From positions 361,628 to 425,627 of the forward strand of contig CAJQLE010000001.1 in the NCBI GenBank assembly GCA_905479105.1: a stretch of DNA of 64,000 bases. Direction: 5' to 3'. The notes below the pieces were generated by a model, which searched no databases, was not told the DNA's origin, and worked only from the letters and a program-made list of their open reading frames with translations. The translations under genes were made by a program, and so were the position numbers. This document shows, piece by piece, positions 2 to 7,277 of the stretch. Position 1 is the stretch's first letter. Each line of letters starts with the position of its first letter. This stretch comes from an uncultured Flavobacteriales bacterium (GTDB lineage: Bacteria > Bacteroidota > Bacteroidia > Flavobacteriales_G > Salibacteraceae).

Positions 2-2272
2 CAAAGCTTTTTCGTTCAGTTAGACTTATCAGGATTCGTTTATGTGGTTGGTCAAACTTTAGGCAATTATCCCATTACTCCAGCCTCAGTCTACTCAGTA
101 AACAATAGTGGTCAATTCTTGCATAAACTCACCAATAATTTACAATCGACAATATTCTCTACCCAATGGGGGTCAGGGAATGGAAATATCAATCTCTCCT
201 TAACCGCATTTCTTGTCAATGAGTGCAACAATATTTTCGTTTCTGGATGGGGTGGATCTTTGTTTGGAATTGCTGCTTCAACTTCACCAGGCGGAACAAC
301 CACAACTGGATTACCAACTACCACTAATGCATATAAACCAACAACAGATGGTCACGATTTCTACTTTATAGTTTTTGAAGACAGCGCAGCCAGCTTGCTT
401 TTCGGCAGTTTCTTTGGAGGCAATACCGGAAATGCCGGGGGTGAGCATACTGACGGTGGAACGAGTCGTTTTGACAAGAAAGGAATCATTTATCAATCGG
501 CATGTGCAAGTTGTGGTCAAGCAAGTTCATTCCCTACCACTACAGGTGCTTATGCAACCGCGAAACCCGCATCTGCATCTTGTAATCTTGCCGCCCTTAA
601 ATACGACTTGGTGACCTTAATAGCCGAAGTTGATATTAATGGGCCAGCAGAAGTTTGTGTTGATGATTCTTTGCAATTTATTAATGACAGTTTTGGTGGA
701 TCACTGTACATGTGGGATTTTGGAGACGGCACTGTCAGTGACGAATTTGAACCAAAACATGCATATTCAAACGTTGGCACCTACGATGTGGTGCTCGTCA
801 TAATGGATTCCGTGAGTTGTGTGTTTTCAGATACTGACTCGATTCAAGTTACTGTGAATCCCGGGCCAATTGCCGTAGTCCCAAATTACCCCAAAGTTTG
901 CGCTGGAGATCTAGTTCAACTCAATGCATCGGGAGGTGATACATACTCTTGGTCACCTTCAACTGGATTAAGTGATCCAAATATTGCGAATCCCGTTGCA
1001 ACGGTCACTGAACTAAAAACTTATGTGGTATCGGTAGAGGATAGTTGTGGAGTCGATACGGCTTGGGTTACGCTGCGCATATTTCCGGATAATACTGATG
1101 CCATTGGAGACACCTCTATATGCCAAGGACTATCGGGTGAATTATGGTCCAGTGGTGGTGTGAGCTACAGCTGGTCGCCAGGATTTTACCTCAGTTCAAC
1201 CAATGTTTCTAATCCGATTGTTAGTCCAGACAGCACTATTGATTATACCCTTTCTATAATAGACTCTTTTGGATGCGAAAAAGAATACCCGATCACGGTG
1301 TTTGTTGATGGCTTTGTGCCTCAAGTTCAAGCCTGGGGAGACACATCAGTTTGCTCTGGTGATAGGATTTTATTGACGGCTAAGGGAGCAGCAGGATATG
1401 AATGGTTTCCAAAAGAGACTATTCTAAATCCATTCTATAATTCGACACCTGCATATCCCGAGGAAACCACAACCTACGTTGTTATCGTTCAAAACTCCTG
1501 TGGTAAAGCATCAGACTCAGTACAGGTAATTATCAACCCCATAAACCTCAATATCTCCGTAGATACAGCTGTTTGCTTTGGGGATACAGTAAATTTATCA
1601 GCCAGCGGAAGTTATACTTACAAATGGTCAGGTCCCGCATTTGAAGTGCCGAGCTATTCGGCCAGACCAAGCATTACTCCTGCAGAAAGTGGATGGTATA
1701 AAGTAGAAGGAAGTAATCTAGAGAATTGCTCCAAATCAGATAGCCTTTACGTTGAGGTATTTCCGATGCCTGAATTGAAAATAGCATCGAATGAAGACAC
1801 CATAACTGGACTTGAAAACGTGTTGCTTGTAGCGGAGTCCAATGCAGAAAACTATTGGACTTCAAAAGGCTATTTGCCTTGCATTAATTGTGATTCAATA
1901 TTGGTTTACCCTAGGGTCAAAACAGTTTACAAGGTGCAAGCCATTGACAGCAACGGATGCAGCCTTAGTGACTCCATTTCTGTTTCACCGATCAGTTTGA
2001 TTTTTGCTCCGAACGCGTTCAGTCCTGATGGAGATGGTGTAAACGATCTTTTTAGGGTTAAAGGACACCATATTGATCACTATCAAATACAGATTCTCAA
2101 CCGATGGGGAGAAGAAGTCTACCGCAGTAATGATATTTCTGCTGGATGGAATGGCAAGAAATACAACCTTAGCTCAGATTCACCTATTGGATCATATACT
2201 TTCAAAATAGAGTATTCCGTTTACCCTATTCAAGAACTTTTCGAAGTGGGAACTATAAACCTTATCAGGTAA
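2..2272 (+). CDS. Secreted PKD/Ig-repeat protein with T9SS type B C-terminal domain (5' partial)
   Basis: The frame is open from base 2, so the gene starts outside the window; the GTG at 44 is only an internal codon. A PKD-like domain (key part GDGTVSDEFEPKHAYSNVGTYD) is followed by about four tandem Ig-like repeats of roughly 85 residues. Each repeat opens with (V/I)C-x-G and contains YSWSP or a variant. The C-terminus carries the gliding motility-associated (type B) sorting domain: PNAFSPDGDGVND, then NRWGEEVY and GWNGK. Such domains send proteins through the type IX secretion system to the cell surface. The family includes SprB-like adhesins, but no specific ligand can be named. The stop overlaps the convergent dioxygenase gene by eight bases. 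Confidence 0.9.
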   Translation, partial: QSFFVQLDLSGFVYVVGQTLGNYPITPASVYSVNNSGQFLHKLTNNLQSTIFSTQWGSGNGNINLSLTAFLVNECNNIFVSGWGGSLFGIAASTSPGGTTTTGLPTTTNAYKPTTDGHDFYFIVFEDSAASLLFGSFFGGNTGNAGGEHTDGGTSRFDKKGIIYQSACASCGQASSFPTTTGAYATAKPASASCNLAALKYDLVTLIAEVDINGPAEVCVDDSLQFINDSFGGSLYMWDFGDGTVSDEFEPKHAYSNVGTYDVVLVIMDSVSCVFSDTDSIQVTVNPGPIAVVPNYPKVCAGDLVQLNASGGDTYSWSPSTGLSDPNIANPVATVTELKTYVVSVEDSCGVDTAWVTLRIFPDNTDAIGDTSICQGLSGELWSSGGVSYSWSPGFYLSSTNVSNPIVSPDSTIDYTLSIIDSFGCEKEYPITVFVDGFVPQVQAWGDTSVCSGDRILLTAKGAAGYEWFPKETILNPFYNSTPAYPEETTTYVVIVQNSCGKASDSVQVIINPINLNISVDTAVCFGDTVNLSASGSYTYKWSGPAFEVPSYSARPSITPAESGWYKVEGSNLENCSKSDSLYVEVFPMPELKIASNEDTITGLENVLLVAESNAENYWTSKGYLPCINCDSILVYPRVKTVYKVQAIDSNGCSLSDSISVSPISLIFAPNAFSPDGDGVNDLFRVKGHHIDHYQIQILNRWGEEVYRSNDISAGWNGKKYNLSSDSPIGSYTFKIEYSVYPIQELFEVGTINLIR

Positions 2273-2792
2273 ACTTTGGATCGGTCTCCATAACATGTCC
2301 ACATTTATTGCATGTCCGCATATCCTCACTAGCATAGAACTCCTTAAAGCGAGGTAAAAAGTCTTGTTCAATATCCTTCAAGTGAAAGTATGTCTCGTGC
2401 AATTTATTGTTGCATTGGTCACAAAACCACATTAGCCCATCGCGATGCATTGACTCTCTAACTCTTTCGATTACCAGACCCACTGAACCTTCAGAACGAC
2501 CTGGGCTGTGCGGAACTTTTGGAGGTAATAAGAACATATCACCAGGTCCCAGTGGAACATCAACCGGCTTGCCGTCTTCTTGAATTCGAACATTGATATT
2601 TCCTTCCAATTGATAGAAGAGCTCTTCTGTTTCGTTGTAGTGATAATCTTTTCGAGCATTTGGACCACCCACAATCATGACGATATAATCTGAACCTTCA
2701 GGATAGAGATTTTTATTTCCGACCGGTGGCTTTAAAAGATCACGGTTTTCTTCTATCCACTTCTGCAAGTTGAATGGTTTCTTAATGCTCAT
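2265..2792 (-). CDS. nbaC: 3-hydroxyanthranilate 3,4-dioxygenase
   Basis: This 175-residue cupin opens the ring of 3-hydroxyanthranilate to 2-amino-3-carboxymuconate semialdehyde in the kynurenine pathway, which leads to quinolinate/NAD or to further breakdown. The iron ligands of the bacterial family are in place: His51, Glu57 and His95. A rubredoxin-like second metal site is formed by two CxxC pairs near residues 124-127 and 161-164, as in other bacterial enzymes. Length is typical. A second possible kynurenine-pathway enzyme, an ALDH8A1-like dehydrogenase, lies at 5838-7277. The gene is separated from the two-component operon upstream by a terminator. Confidence 0.95.
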   Translation of the reverse strand: MSIKKPFNLQKWIEENRDLLKPPVGNKNLYPEGSDYIVMIVGGPNARKDYHYNETEELFYQLEGNINVRIQEDGKPVDVPLGPGDMFLLPPKVPHSPGRSEGSVGLVIERVRESMHRDGLMWFCDQCNNKLHETYFHLKDIEQDFLPRFKEFYASEDMRTCNKCGHVMETDPKFT

Positions 2793-2870: not shown

Positions 2871-3581
2871 CTAAGGTAATATCAATCTAAACCCTTTGCC
2901 ATGCTCATTGATGATTTTCACTCCTTCATCTTCCTTTAAATATTTGCGAAGCTTTGCGATGTAAACATCCATACTTCTAGAGTTGAAGTAGCTATCATCA
3001 CCCCAAATGGCTAGCAGAGCTTGAGAACGATCTAGCAACTGATTAGAGTGCTGTCCAAGCATTTTCAATAGGGCATTTTCTTTTGATGTCAGGTGTTGTT
3101 CCTTTCCATCTATTACCAAGACTTGGTTTTTAAAATCGAACTTAAATTTCCCCAATTCAAAAACCGTCTTTTCCTCAATTTTCTCTTCACCCTTTGTCCT
3201 TCTTAGAATTGCCTTCAACCTCATGAGCAGTTCCTCCATAGAGAAAGGCTTTGTGATATAATCGTCTCCCCCACTCTTAAAGCCTTCCAGTGTGTCTTCT
3301 TTCATCGATTTCGCTGTCAAATAGATGATAGGGATGCTCTCGTTTGCATTTCTAATTTCTTTTCCAAGCGTAAAACCATCCTTTTCTGGCATCATGACAT
3401 CGAGCACACAGCAGTCGAAATCACCATTCGCGAATTTCTTCCACCCTTCTATACCATTCTTGGCTAAAGTAGCCTCGTAACCTTTTGCTTCGAGGTATTC
3501 CGTTAGAATTAATCCCAAGTTAGGATCATCTTCTGCTACTAAGATTTTAGTCTTTTCCGCTTTTGTTACTTCATTTTCCAT
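2871..3581 (-). CDS. OmpR-family response regulator (RprY-like)
   Basis: The 236-residue protein has a receiver domain (about 11-125) with the acidic pocket EDD at 17-19, phospho-acceptor Asp61, the LTAK threonine and the TKPF lysine. A winged-helix DNA-binding domain follows (about 140-236; SRSMDVYIAKLRKYL recognition helix). It is the partner of the histidine kinase whose stop it overlaps by 11 bases. Bacteroidota relatives include RprY of the RprX/RprY pair. A likely target is the tandem TTAAC array at 5251-5286, since OmpR-type regulators bind direct repeats one helical turn apart. Confidence 0.92.
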   Translation of the reverse strand: MENEVTKAEKTKILVAEDDPNLGLILTEYLEAKGYEATLAKNGIEGWKKFANGDFDCCVLDVMMPEKDGFTLGKEIRNANESIPIIYLTAKSMKEDTLEGFKSGGDDYITKPFSMEELLMRLKAILRRTKGEEKIEEKTVFELGKFKFDFKNQVLVIDGKEQHLTSKENALLKMLGQHSNQLLDRSQALLAIWGDDSYFNSRSMDVYIAKLRKYLKEDEGVKIINEHGKGFRLILP

Positions 3582-5205
3582 AATTGGCTGATATTAGTGG
3601 TAATTCGATGTAGAAAGTACTTCCTTTTTCCAACTGACTTTCCACAGAAACTGTTCCTCCATGTCGTTCAGTGATGATTTTTACATAACTCAATCCGAGA
3701 CCAAAGCCTTTAACGTTGTGAACGTTTCCTGTAGGCACTCGATAAAGTCGATCAAATATTTTCTTCAGGTTATCTGATGAGATTCCAATTCCCTCATCCT
3801 GCACTGAAAGTAATATAGTTTCTCCAGTTTGTTTTGTGGAAATAGTAATACGAGGAGCATTCTTAGAATATTTCACCGCATTGTCCAACAAATTGTAAAT
3901 CACATTGGTGAGGTGATTTCTATCAAACTCAAATATGTGGTCGGTTGCATTCAAATGCAATTCCACTTTACCTCCACGCTCTTTCAATTGTATCTGATAC
4001 TTCTCAATGACTTCTTTTAGCAGCGCGTGTAAATCACCTTCTTCCCTTTTCAGCTTGAAGTCACCCTTATCCAACACCGCGCTCTGCAGCACTTCTTCTA
4101 CGAGTAAACCAAGGCGCTTATTTTCGGTATTGATAATATTCAAATAGCGATTTTTTATAGTCTCAACCTTCGCTAGCTCTGGATCGCTAAGTGCTTCACA
4201 TGCCAGGCTTATAGTAGATATTGGCGTTTTCAGCTCATGCGTCATATTGTTTATGAAATCATTCTTGATGACGCTATTTTGCTTTTGAAGAAGGATCGTT
4301 CTAATCGAGTTATAAGATGTCCAAATAAGAGCCATGACCAAAATAAGCGAAACCGCCAGCAAAGCCCAAAGGCTGTTCAATATATATCCGCTTTCATTCG
4401 GAAAGTAGATCTTTAAAAAATAAGGAACCTGAATGACGTCATTAGGAAATAAGCGGGCCGATGATGTCGACTCTCTTAATTTATTTTCATGCTCATCATG
4501 ACCAAAAACCATTTCACCAGATTGATCAAACACTCCCATTTCATAATGCAGAGACAGCCCGTGTCTCTTTAATGCCATTTTTAAAAGTGAGTCCACGATA
4601 AGTGGATCAACTCTTTCATCAATGGGTTGATTTACATCTACCTCAATCAAACTTTGCACGATGTCTCCAAGGAATGCCTTTTTGGTATTGACTCTTTCTC
4701 GCAGACTTTGGACATCTGTATTAAGAGGATCCATTTTATGCTCAAGTTCTAGGTCAATCGAGTCAGCCGTAATCATTCTGAGACTCAATTCATCATCAAA
4801 GTTTTTTGCAAACGGCAAGTCATTGACAGAGTATGTAATCGTCTTTTGAGCCTTCTGATCTCCATTCTCTTCTTCGACTCTTACTGTCACCTTATCACCA
4901 ACACGATCAATGTTTCGGCTCATGACATATTGAACCAACGAGTCATCTGGAGGAAAAGATGTTTCATCGCTATTCTCATCTTCTATGAAAAGATATTTGG
5001 CCTCTTGATGAGATTTAATCTTGGTAAGCATCTCATGCCTTTCAACCAAATCAACCACATCATTCAACGCTTCTGAAGCACCCCTTGAAATTCTATCCCG
5101 CTCTAAATCAATGGCATTTGTGATCCAATAAATCTGAATACCAATAAGCCCGGCTAAGGCTAAGGCAATTACTATTACAATATTTCTGAGCTGCTGATGA
5201 TTCAT
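3571..5205 (-). CDS. Membrane sensor histidine kinase (RprX-like)
   Basis: The 544 residues comprise a first membrane segment (about 8-29), a roughly 245-residue extracytoplasmic sensor region with no recognised domain, and a second membrane segment (about 277-297). Then come a HisKA domain with phospho-acceptor His323 in MTHELKTPIS and a C-terminal HATPase with N box and DEGIGI and GFGLGL motifs. It should phosphorylate the response regulator encoded next in the same transcript. A TAnnTTTG-type promoter element lies at 5216-5223 (minus strand), only about ten bases before the start codon. The signal sensed cannot be told from sequence. Confidence 0.93.
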   Translation of the reverse strand: MNHQQLRNIVIVIALALAGLIGIQIYWITNAIDLERDRISRGASEALNDVVDLVERHEMLTKIKSHQEAKYLFIEDENSDETSFPPDDSLVQYVMSRNIDRVGDKVTVRVEEENGDQKAQKTITYSVNDLPFAKNFDDELSLRMITADSIDLELEHKMDPLNTDVQSLRERVNTKKAFLGDIVQSLIEVDVNQPIDERVDPLIVDSLLKMALKRHGLSLHYEMGVFDQSGEMVFGHDEHENKLRESTSSARLFPNDVIQVPYFLKIYFPNESGYILNSLWALLAVSLILVMALIWTSYNSIRTILLQKQNSVIKNDFINNMTHELKTPISTISLACEALSDPELAKVETIKNRYLNIINTENKRLGLLVEEVLQSAVLDKGDFKLKREEGDLHALLKEVIEKYQIQLKERGGKVELHLNATDHIFEFDRNHLTNVIYNLLDNAVKYSKNAPRITISTKQTGETILLSVQDEGIGISSDNLKKIFDRLYRVPTGNVHNVKGFGLGLSYVKIITERHGGTVSVESQLEKGSTFYIELPLISANYGK

Positions 5206-5215
5206 TGATCGCAGA

Positions 5216-5223
5216 CAAATGTA
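5216..5223 (-). promoter_or_regulatory. Bacteroidota -7 promoter element of the kinase operon
   Basis: Read on the minus strand, TACATTTG matches the Bacteroidota consensus TAnnTTTG. The start codon is at 5205, so the 5' leader would be very short. The TTAAC array lies upstream. Confidence 0.5.
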
Positions 5224-5250
5224 AAATCGCAGTCACGTACAAGCGCTTGT

Positions 5251-5286
5251 TTAACAGTACTTAACATTGGTTAACCGCCCATTAAC
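5251..5286. promoter_or_regulatory. Four tandem TTAAC boxes, probable response-regulator binding array
   Basis: TTAAC occurs at 5251, 5261, 5271 and 5282, so the boxes are 10, 10 and 11 bases apart. This one-turn spacing of direct repeats is what OmpR/PhoB-type regulators use. The array lies midway between the divergent kinase gene and the secreted acidic protein gene, upstream of both predicted -7 elements. That binding is by the adjacent response regulator is inference. Confidence 0.6.
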
Positions 5287-5308
5287 AAAGGAGTTCAGAA
5301 GGTGAGTT

Positions 5309-5316
5309 TATGTTTG
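5309..5316 (+). promoter_or_regulatory. Bacteroidota -7 promoter element of the acidic secreted protein gene
   Basis: TATGTTTG matches TAnnTTTG, 18 bases before the ATG at 5335 and 23 bases after the last TTAAC box. This is a position suited to activation by the array. Confidence 0.5.
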
Positions 5317-5334
5317 AATTTCTAAAACCAACCT

Positions 5335-5718
5335 ATGAAAAAGCCACTTTTTATCGCTGCCATGTTGCTTGGATTAACTTCCATTTCATTCGCGCAATCT
5401 TCCTCACAGCACGAAGAAAAAAACATTAAAATAATCATCGAAGAAGACGTAAACGGCAAGACGACAACAACAGTGCTCGAAGGCGAAGAAGCCGAAGAGT
5501 ATCTTGAAAAAATGGATAAAGAATTGGAGGAAGAAATTTCAATTCACCTAGAGCATTCTCTTAATGACCTTGAAAAGAACATTGAAATAAGTCTTGAGGT
5601 CTTAGAGAAAGAACTCGATGCCATTGATTGGGATGAGTACAGTGAGAAAATTGAAATCAAGATTGAAAAGATCACGGACGAAATACATACCAAAATCCTT
5701 GAATCTCAACCCCACTAA
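5335..5718 (+). CDS. Small secreted acidic coiled-coil protein
   Basis: The 127-residue protein begins with a signal peptide (about 1-21, ending ISFAQ). The mature part is strongly acidic, Glu/Asp/Lys-rich and predicted helical, with heptad-like spacing (for example LEKMDKELEEEISIHLEHSL). No family is recognised. It is divergent from the histidine kinase and shares the TTAAC control region with it. This arrangement resembles periplasmic accessory proteins controlled by an envelope-stress pair (a CpxP/Spy-like role is only an analogy). It ends before a clear terminator at 5772-5805. Confidence 0.75.
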   Translation: MKKPLFIAAMLLGLTSISFAQSSSQHEEKNIKIIIEEDVNGKTTTTVLEGEEAEEYLEKMDKELEEEISIHLEHSLNDLEKNIEISLEVLEKELDAIDWDEYSEKIEIKIEKITDEIHTKILESQPH

Positions 5719-5771
5719 TACGGTAAAGCACTACCAGTCATAATTCTCTATTTTCTCTGTTTAGTTAGGTT

Positions 5772-5805
5772 AAAAGCCCTGTCATCAATGATCGGGGCTT
5801 TTTTT
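5772..5805 (+). terminator. Rho-independent terminator after the acidic secreted protein
   Basis: The arms AAAAGCCC and GGGGCTTTT enclose a loop that is itself partly palindromic (TCATCAATGA), followed by a run of seven T. Confidence 0.85.
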
Positions 5806-5837
5806 ATTAAACTACATTTGAGGCAAGACTTTGAACT

Positions 5838-7277
5838 ATGGAAAAGCTGCTGAATTACATCAACGGAGAACTCGTTGAACCAAAAAAAGGTGAGTACTTC
5901 GATAATATAGAACCAGCCACTGGTAAAGTATATAGCCTTATTCCAGACAGCGATATTGATGATGTAAATGCAGCCACCGCTGCCGCAAAAGCTGCTTTCC
6001 CGATCTGGAGTAGGATGAGTATTCAAGAGCGCTCGGATATATTATTACGTGTTGCTAAACTTATTGGAGAACGACAAGAAGAATTGGCACAAGCGGAAAG
6101 CAGAGACAATGGAAAGCCATTGAAATTGGCTCGCACAGCAGATATTCCTAGAGCTCAAGCTAATTTTCATTTTTACGCTACGGGTATTTTGCATTATGCT
6201 TCAGAATCGCATTCAATGGGCGACTTGGCGATCAACTATACACTTCGTCAACCGATAGGAATTGCCGGATGCATTTCTCCATGGAACCTCCCGCTCTATC
6301 TTTTCAGCTGGAAGATCGCTCCGGCCTTGGCAGCAGGAAATACGGTTGTCGCTAAACCATCTGAAGTAACTCCTTATACGGCCTACTTGCTTTCTAAAAT
6401 TTGCATCGATGCTGGAATGCCCAAAGGCGTGTTGAATATTGTGCACGGATTAGGACCAAAAGCCGGAGCTGCGATAATCGAGCATAATGACATTCCAATG
6501 ATCAGCTTTACTGGCGGTACAGCAACGGGTGAATGGATTGCGAGAACAGCTGCGCCAAAGTTCAAAAAGCTAAGCCTTGAATTGGGAGGTAAAAACCCCA
6601 ATATCATTTTCGCAGACTGCGATTTTGAGGACATGATGAAAACAACCGTTCACTCATCATTCGCCAATCAAGGTCAAATTTGCTTATGCGGTTCCAGAAT
6701 TTTGGTTGAGCGGCCTATCTATGAGAAATTCAAAGATGAATTTGTGAAACGAGTGAAGGCTTTGAAGGTGGGAAACCCTAAGGACAATGTCAACTTAGGA
6801 GCAGTGGTAAGTAAACCACACATGGAAAAAGTATTAAGTTATGTAGAGCTTGCTAGAGACGAAGGTGGAACCGTTCTCACAGGTGGCAAGCGAGCAGAAG
6901 TTGGAGGAGAATTTTCAGAAGGATATTTCTTGGAACCAACCATCATTGAAGGATTATCACACACTTGCCGAACCAATCAAGAAGAAATTTTCGGACCAGT
7001 TGTTACCATCATGCCATTTGACACGGACGAAGAAGCATTGATGATGGCCAACAGCACAAAGTATGGTTTGGCCAGTACCGTTTGGACAAGCAACCTGAAA
7101 AGAGCGCATACCATTGCTCGAGAATTGCATACCGGAATAGTCTGGATCAACTGCTGGTTGTTGCGCGATTTACGCACACCTTTTGGTGGAGTAAAAAGCT
7201 CTGGCGTGGGCCGTGAAGGCGGTTTTGAAGCGCTTCAGTTTTTTACGGAACCGAAGAATGTGTGTGTGAAGTATTAA
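5838..7277 (+). CDS. Aldehyde dehydrogenase, ALDH8A1-like (probable 2-aminomuconate 6-semialdehyde dehydrogenase)
   Basis: This 479-residue NAD-dependent aldehyde dehydrogenase has Asn150 (SPWNLP), the LELGG glutamate near residue 248 and catalytic Cys282 in NQGQICLCGSR. The text around the cysteine and the late motif GIVWINCWLLRDLRTPFGG resemble ALDH8A1 and bacterial 2-aminomuconate or 2-hydroxymuconate semialdehyde dehydrogenases. Since 3-hydroxyanthranilate dioxygenase lies 3 kb away, oxidation of 2-aminomuconate semialdehyde in kynurenine breakdown is the best guess, but the exact substrate is inferred. Its end overlaps the convergent monooxygenase-like gene by four bases. Confidence 0.85.
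   Translation: MEKLLNYINGELVEPKKGEYFDNIEPATGKVYSLIPDSDIDDVNAATAAAKAAFPIWSRMSIQERSDILLRVAKLIGERQEELAQAESRDNGKPLKLARTADIPRAQANFHFYATGILHYASESHSMGDLAINYTLRQPIGIAGCISPWNLPLYLFSWKIAPALAAGNTVVAKPSEVTPYTAYLLSKICIDAGMPKGVLNIVHGLGPKAGAAIIEHNDIPMISFTGGTATGEWIARTAAPKFKKLSLELGGKNPNIIFADCDFEDMMKTTVHSSFANQGQICLCGSRILVERPIYEKFKDEFVKRVKALKVGNPKDNVNLGAVVSKPHMEKVLSYVELARDEGGTVLTGGKRAEVGGEFSEGYFLEPTIIEGLSHTCRTNQEEIFGPVVTIMPFDTDEEALMMANSTKYGLASTVWTSNLKRAHTIARELHTGIVWINCWLLRDLRTPFGGVKSSGVGREGGFEALQFFTEPKNVCVKY

Follow-up and report, generated by a model that had tools for sequence, protein, structure and literature searches.

What might four short direct repeats do between a two-component operon and a divergently transcribed gene? 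In the 64,000-nucleotide stretch of DNA analysed here (the window), TTAAC boxes lie on the + strand at 5251-5255, 5261-5265, 5271-5275 and 5282-5286 (span 5251-5286). The preliminary description of this DNA had reported the four boxes, starting 10, 10 and 11 bases apart, and had placed them between a two-component operon and the divergent gene of a small acidic, apparently secreted protein; both statements were confirmed, the operon being RprX/RprY-like. It had further proposed that the regulator binds the array, controls its own operon and activates the acidic protein. We consider it probable, judging from sequence, that the array is an RprY-like operator, that the divergent transcript yields a protein and an RNA tag (M), and that M pairs in trans with a complementary RNA (A).

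The two-component operon and its predicted operator

The two-gene operon is read from the - strand and starts with the gene of a 544-aa RprX-like sensor histidine kinase (3571-5205; HisKA and HATPase_c over cut-off). This gene overlaps that of the regulator (2871-3581, - strand), as befits a cognate RprX kinase. The regulator, a 236-aa protein, carries the receiver and winged-helix domains of the OmpR/PhoB family (Response_reg, PF00072; Trans_reg_C, PF00486; both over cut-off). RprY was its best match among 94 families, the next one scoring 184.3. Calling it RprY-like, as had been done, is therefore right, while RprY itself is not established, because the 323.4 bits obtained against the NCBIfam RprY equivalog (NF051850) fall under the curated cut-off of 370. 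The kinase-regulator operon and the best family match liken this system to RprX/RprY of Bacteroides and Porphyromonas, as presented in the accessible parts of two papers (PMC3646045, PMC6032018); the score of the window regulator below the equivalog cut-off sets it apart. According to the accessible part of the former, recombinant RprY of P. gingivalis shifted its own promoter by EMSA, a precedent for autoregulation, and RprY is treated as a likely repressor (PMC3646045). With regard to an RprY binding motif, the terms 'motif', 'consensus' and 'binding site' do not occur in the accessible parts of either paper, and the only TTAAC in that of PMC6032018 lies within a primer. Neither the divergent acidic protein nor the RNA tag, both features of the window, was seen in those parts. 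A 3-hydroxyanthranilate dioxygenase gene (window 2265-2792; Pfam 3-HAO) adjoins the operon.

Both transcripts have a match to the -7 consensus TAnnTTTG, namely TACATTTG at 5223-5216 on the - strand for the kinase operon and TATGTTTG at 5309-5316 on the + strand for the divergent transcript. The array had been said to lie symmetrically upstream of the two elements; both were matched, but the symmetry is approximate, because 22 and 27 bases separate them from the nearest box. Among 55 loci with a box pair, 38 have a -7 match on the kinase side at 35-37 nt from box 1, and 17 have one on the divergent side at 57-59 nt.

Conservation of the array was assessed with the best 80 of 575 confirmed relatives of the regulator. 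A kinase start was identifiable in 76 of them, making 77 with the window (L038 and L073 are without a start codon in the available DNA; L080 and L082 have no entry), and 73 of the 77 regions, the window's own included, offered 200 nt upstream of it. TTAAC-N5-TTAAC in the orientation of the window was found upstream of the RprX-like kinase in 53/73 regions and in the opposite orientation in 2/73, while dinucleotide shuffles of the same regions (200 rounds) gave a mean of 0.1 and a maximum of 2. The exact pair was missing from 20/73 regions. In a motif-free scan of all 5-mer direct repeats with gaps of 4-7, TTAAC with a gap of 5 ranked first. Moreover, in 37 of the 53 loci the distance between the start of box 1 and the kinase start codon is 42-50 nt. 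The exact four-box array (10, 10, 11) occurs at 12 places in 12 of 395 genomes of the phylum (control, 0); 11 of the 12, that of the window included, adjoin an RprX homologue, L159 being the exception.

With half-sites one helical turn apart that are conserved at the cognate promoter, the array conforms to the tandem operators of OmpR/PhoB-type regulators, of which the TTAACA-like PhoP boxes of B. subtilis are an example. It shares with them head-to-tail half-sites at 10-11 bp just upstream of promoter elements, and differs in that here four predicted sites would serve two divergent promoters. We propose that the boxes form two pairs of head-to-tail half-sites of the TTAACA type, to which the adjacent RprY-like regulator would bind as two head-to-tail dimers. 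An envelope signal would pass through the kinase to yield active regulator, which would then regulate its own operon. The circuit proposed earlier is well supported by the fixed positions of boxes and -7 elements at rprXY-like operons across the phylum, and the array looks like the operator of a stress-sensing two-component switch conserved phylum-wide. Such a concrete predicted operator, in a two-component family found across Bacteroidota, makes targets searchable and the sign of regulation testable.

Sites of OmpR-family regulators are often similar direct repeats, so the operator could in principle belong to another member of the family; we regard this as very unlikely, given that 11 of the 12 exact arrays stand beside this kinase. 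That the boxes are chance repeats in AT-rich intergenic DNA, which would suit single pairs elsewhere in the genome being no commoner than the control, is of negligible probability and is refuted by the 53/73 regions against a shuffle maximum of 2, by the company of the RprX homologue at 11/12 four-box arrays, and by position, spacing and orientation conserved phylum-wide.

Within the window, TTAAC-N5-TTAAC occurs twice, compared with a shuffle mean of 0.23, and two occurrences were reached in 2 of 100 shuffles. The genome-wide search recommended earlier did recover the array, which accounts for three of the 11 places with TTAAC-N5-6-TTAAC, but single pairs elsewhere gave no clear regulon. They are not enriched genome-wide, because the reversed control pattern has more matches (28 + 27 versus 10 + 1), and the eight single pairs outside the array adjoin varied genes. 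A genome-wide TTAAC-pair regulon is thus unsupported. A TTAAC-N6-TTAAC pair in this genome (L009, C3:529384-529399) faces another histidine-kinase-like gene in the relative orientation seen in the window, at a distance of 45 bases from the gene start, and perhaps belongs to a second, related circuit.

The divergent acidic protein and boxes 3-4

The divergent gene (5335-5718, + strand) codes for an acidic protein of 127 aa with a signal-peptide-like N-terminus and a GEEAEEYL motif. AlphaFold modelled a beta-hairpin followed by two long helices (mean pLDDT 76.1, pTM 0.37), the other four models reaching a pLDDT of 45.7-50.3; this quality is insufficient for a fold search. There was no Pfam match over cut-off, only a sub-cut-off match to SMBP. 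Homology to CpxP was considered and rejected, since the protein matched no CpxP/Spy (LTXXQ) family model in Pfam or NCBIfam.

At all 11 kinase-adjacent four-box loci, a divergent ORF starts 84-105 nt from box 1 and its product has, by eye, a signal-peptide-like N-terminus. A GEEAEEYL-type motif is common to 10 of them; the remaining product (L158) lacks it and ends in a T9SS sorting domain, the only Pfam family over cut-off in the ten proteins scanned. In the 80-locus set plus the window, either an acidic secreted product or the M motif is present at 13/14 four-box loci (exception, L027) and at 5/38 two- or three-box loci (Fisher p 1.7e-7, a value that ignores the relatedness of the loci and relies on a crude signal-peptide rule). 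Because of this difference, boxes 3-4 probably serve the divergent promoter, and boxes 1-2 would serve the kinase operon. Promoter geometry and co-occurrence suggest that the regulator activates the divergent transcript.

Several loci deserve separate mention. At L012, from a metagenome-assembled genome, the match to the acidic protein is split into two parts that lie in different reading frames, reflecting either an assembly error or a disrupted gene. Three-box arrays (73/83/94, 75/85/96 and 77/87/98) precede a divergent TonB-receptor-like gene with a long leader in L032, L049 and L077, and L032 and L049 contain a ATTTAGGTT-like stretch, possibly a variant of the M tag. L027 (four-box) and L052 (multi-box) have a predicted short ORF-less transcript with a terminator but without TTTAGTTAG, so other RNAs may lie behind the same TTAAC operator.

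The RNA tag M

The 3' UTR of the acidic-protein transcript contains the tag M, CUGUUUAGUUAGGUU (5757-5771, + strand), followed by a stem-loop and T-run at 5772-5805 (+ strand). This stem-loop with its T-run is an intrinsic terminator by inspection and by our RNA model R1, and was not listed by a simple terminator scan. The tag had escaped the preliminary description. The gene downstream encodes an aldehyde dehydrogenase. Within the stretch 5813-5838, a further TACATTTG (5813-5820) stands directly behind the terminator and ahead of the ATG of this gene, which suggests that the gene has its own promoter. M is for this reason unlikely to be its leader; in addition, M persists where another gene follows (L024, L033).

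CpxRA and CpxP of E. coli show a divergent layout of a two-component operon and a small periplasmic protein gene. The 3' UTR of the strongly regulated divergent transcript yields the regulatory RNA CpxQ, according to the accessible part of PMC4817254. In the window, tag and terminator (5757-5805) likewise stand downstream of an mRNA ORF (5335-5718), as far as sequence alone can tell, and the likeness extends to an envelope-type two-component operon with a divergent transcript that would be regulated, a small, predicted periplasmic protein and a 3' UTR that would yield an RNA. This likeness is one of design and comes with no demonstrated sequence relation: the acidic protein has no CpxP-type family match, the tag is multi-copy with a covarying partner RNA, and Hfq is not involved as far as known. 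The divergent transcript would have two products. One is a small, acidic, helical protein that would be secreted and, like CpxP, perhaps acts in the periplasm as a feedback or buffering factor; the other is a 3'-end RNA with the tag. Such an arrangement suggests that a distant phylum has its own version of the CpxP/CpxQ design, in which a single divergent transcript supplies both a periplasmic protein and an RNA.

TTTAGTTAG occurs 14 times across the loci of the relatives (788 kb). Twelve of these copies lie on the divergent strand at distances of 126 to 1022 nt upstream from the start of the kinase, and are followed, by inspection, by a stem-loop and a T-run. Eight of these loci show no acidic ORF of the kind described above (L013, L024, L033, L034, L039, L054, L058 and L069, of which L039 is a short locus). 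Six of the eight allowed a measurement. Their T-runs start about 80 to 144 nt downstream of the closest -7 match, and the predicted RNAs are therefore roughly 75 to 140 nt long; L058 and L069 carry the motif close to the predicted 5' end.

In the genome of the window, GTTTAGTTAG was found at nine sites, five of which are M tags, all in non-coding sequence and each before a terminator. R1 scored the same five copies at 50.9-71.5 bits, followed by a drop to 28.7; these copies helped to train R1, and matches on training rows were not counted as proof. With R1, M copies were detected in 13/13 genomes of the genus and 1/12 further genomes of the family (46 places in total). None was found in 16 more distant genomes under stricter filters, a result that concerns the GGUU form and does not imply absence of M. 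A single model for all variants had to be abandoned, and R1 covers only the GGUU form, because the spacer between M and terminator differs between lineages.

We read 32 of the 46 places, one of them (L156) a variant. M recurs behind genes for the acidic protein, a PspC/toast-rack protein, an OMP_b-brl_2 barrel, a GldL/GldM-like protein of 430 aa and a LytTR regulator (Pfam identity from two representatives each for PspC and barrel, one each for GldL/GldM-like and LytTR). TTAAC pairs lie upstream of M at 5/32 places, all acidic-protein loci (L101, L131, L133, L136, L142); the kinase is beside four of the five and not in the available DNA of L142. The other copies in the genome of the window have no TTAAC pairs in 1.5 kb upstream.

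M gave no Rfam match at gathering score (window 5100-5900 and 14 M loci), with a single sub-threshold snoRNA match in the same material. In this it differs from FopS, which is among the Rfam models according to the accessible part of PMC11697453. FopS/GibS and RbpB of B. thetaiotaomicron, as described there, otherwise offer a parallel, being a multi-copy Bacteroidota RNA with a single-stranded conserved stretch and then a terminator, together with an RRM protein; RRM proteins are encoded in the genome of the window too. M copies, in turn, mostly follow mRNAs, and their proposed partner is another 3' UTR and not a start-codon region. Pairing of M near start codons was in fact considered, and none of the four GTTTAGTTAG sites of this genome that are not M tags was convincingly start-proximal by eye. 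Among the matches listed for the tag 9-mer in the literature, the papers were unrelated.

The partner RNA A and the direction of control

One of those four sites is the complement of M, here called A, in the 3' UTR of trxA. A trxA match was obtained in 13 of the 16 genomes searched, 9 of the 13 in the genus. A is present in the trxA 3' UTR of 8 of these 9 genus genomes (G003 with one mismatch); G008 has M copies and yet no matching complement there, and all 4 order-level relatives with a trxA match lack it. A can fold as CAACC-UAACUAAAC-GGUUG, a hairpin that precedes the terminator and has the complement in its 9-nt loop. In two genomes the sequence reads CAACU-UAACUAAAC-AGUUG, a compensatory stem change that keeps the loop. 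The loop hairpin was seen in six trxA folds; in G003 and G005 a different fold was best.

M of a second lineage has the sequence CCUGUUUAGUUAGUGCAA, and a matching complement lies in the 3' UTR of dnaA in 5/5 genomes examined (DnaA and thioredoxin were each identified by Pfam in one host); no A was found with an 11-mer in G440 and G441. In the family of one dnaA genome, TGCACTAACTAAAC occurs at 78 places in 24 of 46 genomes (control, 1 place), the exact 14-mer being absent from the other 22. Classification by script assigned 16 places to the dnaA 3' UTR, one each in 16 of the 24 genomes; the remaining 8 have no dnaA complement with the exact 14-mer. Another 22 places, one each in 22/24 genomes, are M behind a TTAAC pair; all 22 stand beside a kinase homologue and 21 have the exact four boxes. 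Among the 40 places left, 14 come after PspC-type ORFs and 9 after barrel-type ones, as judged by C-terminal string; the others lie behind other or no ORFs. Five of the 40 fail the crude terminator rule. Two of these five (L299, L253) are once more the complement, located in the loop of a hairpin that precedes a terminator; the ORFs about 200 nt upstream resemble purE and lysA by eye.

Calculated with one M per genome, the M:A duplex has an energy of -20.8 to -28.3 kcal/mol in 8 genomes for trxA and -30.1 to -33.0 kcal/mol in 5 genomes for dnaA, values reached by 0 to 8 of 1000 shuffles. In G008, M and trxA gave -8.1 kcal/mol, and 456 of 1000 shuffles were as good. All five M copies in the genome of the window pair with its own A (-23.1 to -28.8 kcal/mol). 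Cross-lineage pairs have energies of -16.6 to -20.1; in every case the same M forms a stronger duplex with the A of its own genome (-20.8 to -33.0). Within the genus, pairing is only moderately lineage-specific, and M of G004 pairs better with A of G000 (-22.8) than with its own (-20.8). Between the trxA and dnaA lineages, the flank of A follows the flank of M, which we take as the strongest evidence for RNA pairing.

These data point to an envelope-stress circuit with RNA pairing in trans, CpxP/CpxQ-like in design. M would exist as an RNA and base-pair with A in the trxA 3' UTR. Because M also ends PspC, barrel, GldL/GldM-like and LytTR transcripts, we propose that one and the same M RNA is produced from several envelope operons; this RNA would pair with, and probably titrate, the single A RNA. 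Two RRM_1 proteins encoded over cut-off in the genome of the window are candidate helpers. Put more broadly, we give an even chance to a tag/anti-tag network in which envelope operons, the RprY-like one included, end in M and all meet one A, so that stress is coupled in trans to a growth-linked transcript. A would display its complement either within the loop of a hairpin or next to a terminator, and would have moved among trxA and dnaA 3' UTRs and stand-alone positions while staying complementary to M.

The direction of control could also be the reverse, a tentative alternative that we rate as possible though rather doubtful. A would then do the regulating, as a small RNA that is either processed from the trxA/dnaA transcript or shares its end and that targets the M tags in 3' UTRs of envelope mRNAs, and the ORF-less RNA behind RprY boxes would be a decoy of A. 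It fits that A is single in each genome where it was found and M multi-copy, that M hosts recur across lineages (the PspC- and barrel-type ORFs above) while A hosts change (trxA, dnaA, after purE or lysA), and that the complement sits in a hairpin loop in the six trxA folds and the two stand-alone cases. The changing hosts of A and the recurring hosts of M are nonetheless compatible with either a sponge or a regulator A, and the M-only RNAs, which have a regulated promoter to themselves, resemble dedicated small RNAs.

Less likely still is that only the operator is real, with the boxes as an RprY-like site, M as a cis-acting 3'-end signal, for instance an RRM-protein binding site or an aid to processing or termination, and the match to A unused for pairing. 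Several mRNAs have M in the same position ahead of a terminator, GUUUAGU is similar to UAG-type RRM sites, and the two RRM_1 proteins would be at hand. A protein site, however, does not explain that A is the reverse complement, that lineage-specific flanks change together in M and A, or that the five dnaA genomes tested contain a perfect complement of 17-21 nt. Returning to trans pairing of M and A, a tag whose exact complement follows a housekeeping gene at another place in the genome suggests an RNA circuit that had gone unrecognised. The pair makes strong sequence predictions that a few point changes would test, in a phylum in which few sRNA circuits are understood. In the accessible parts of a study of F. 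psychrophilum sRNAs (PMC9723704), dnaA, trxA and RprY are not mentioned, nor are RprX, RprY, dnaA and trxA in those of PMC10994844; within the open-licence literature, no paper joining dnaA, sponge, sRNA and Bacteroidota was found.

At L147, the tag-carrying barrel gene is apparently, by eye, beside an ECF-sigma-like sequence, a neighbour that would provide another stress input for the tag.
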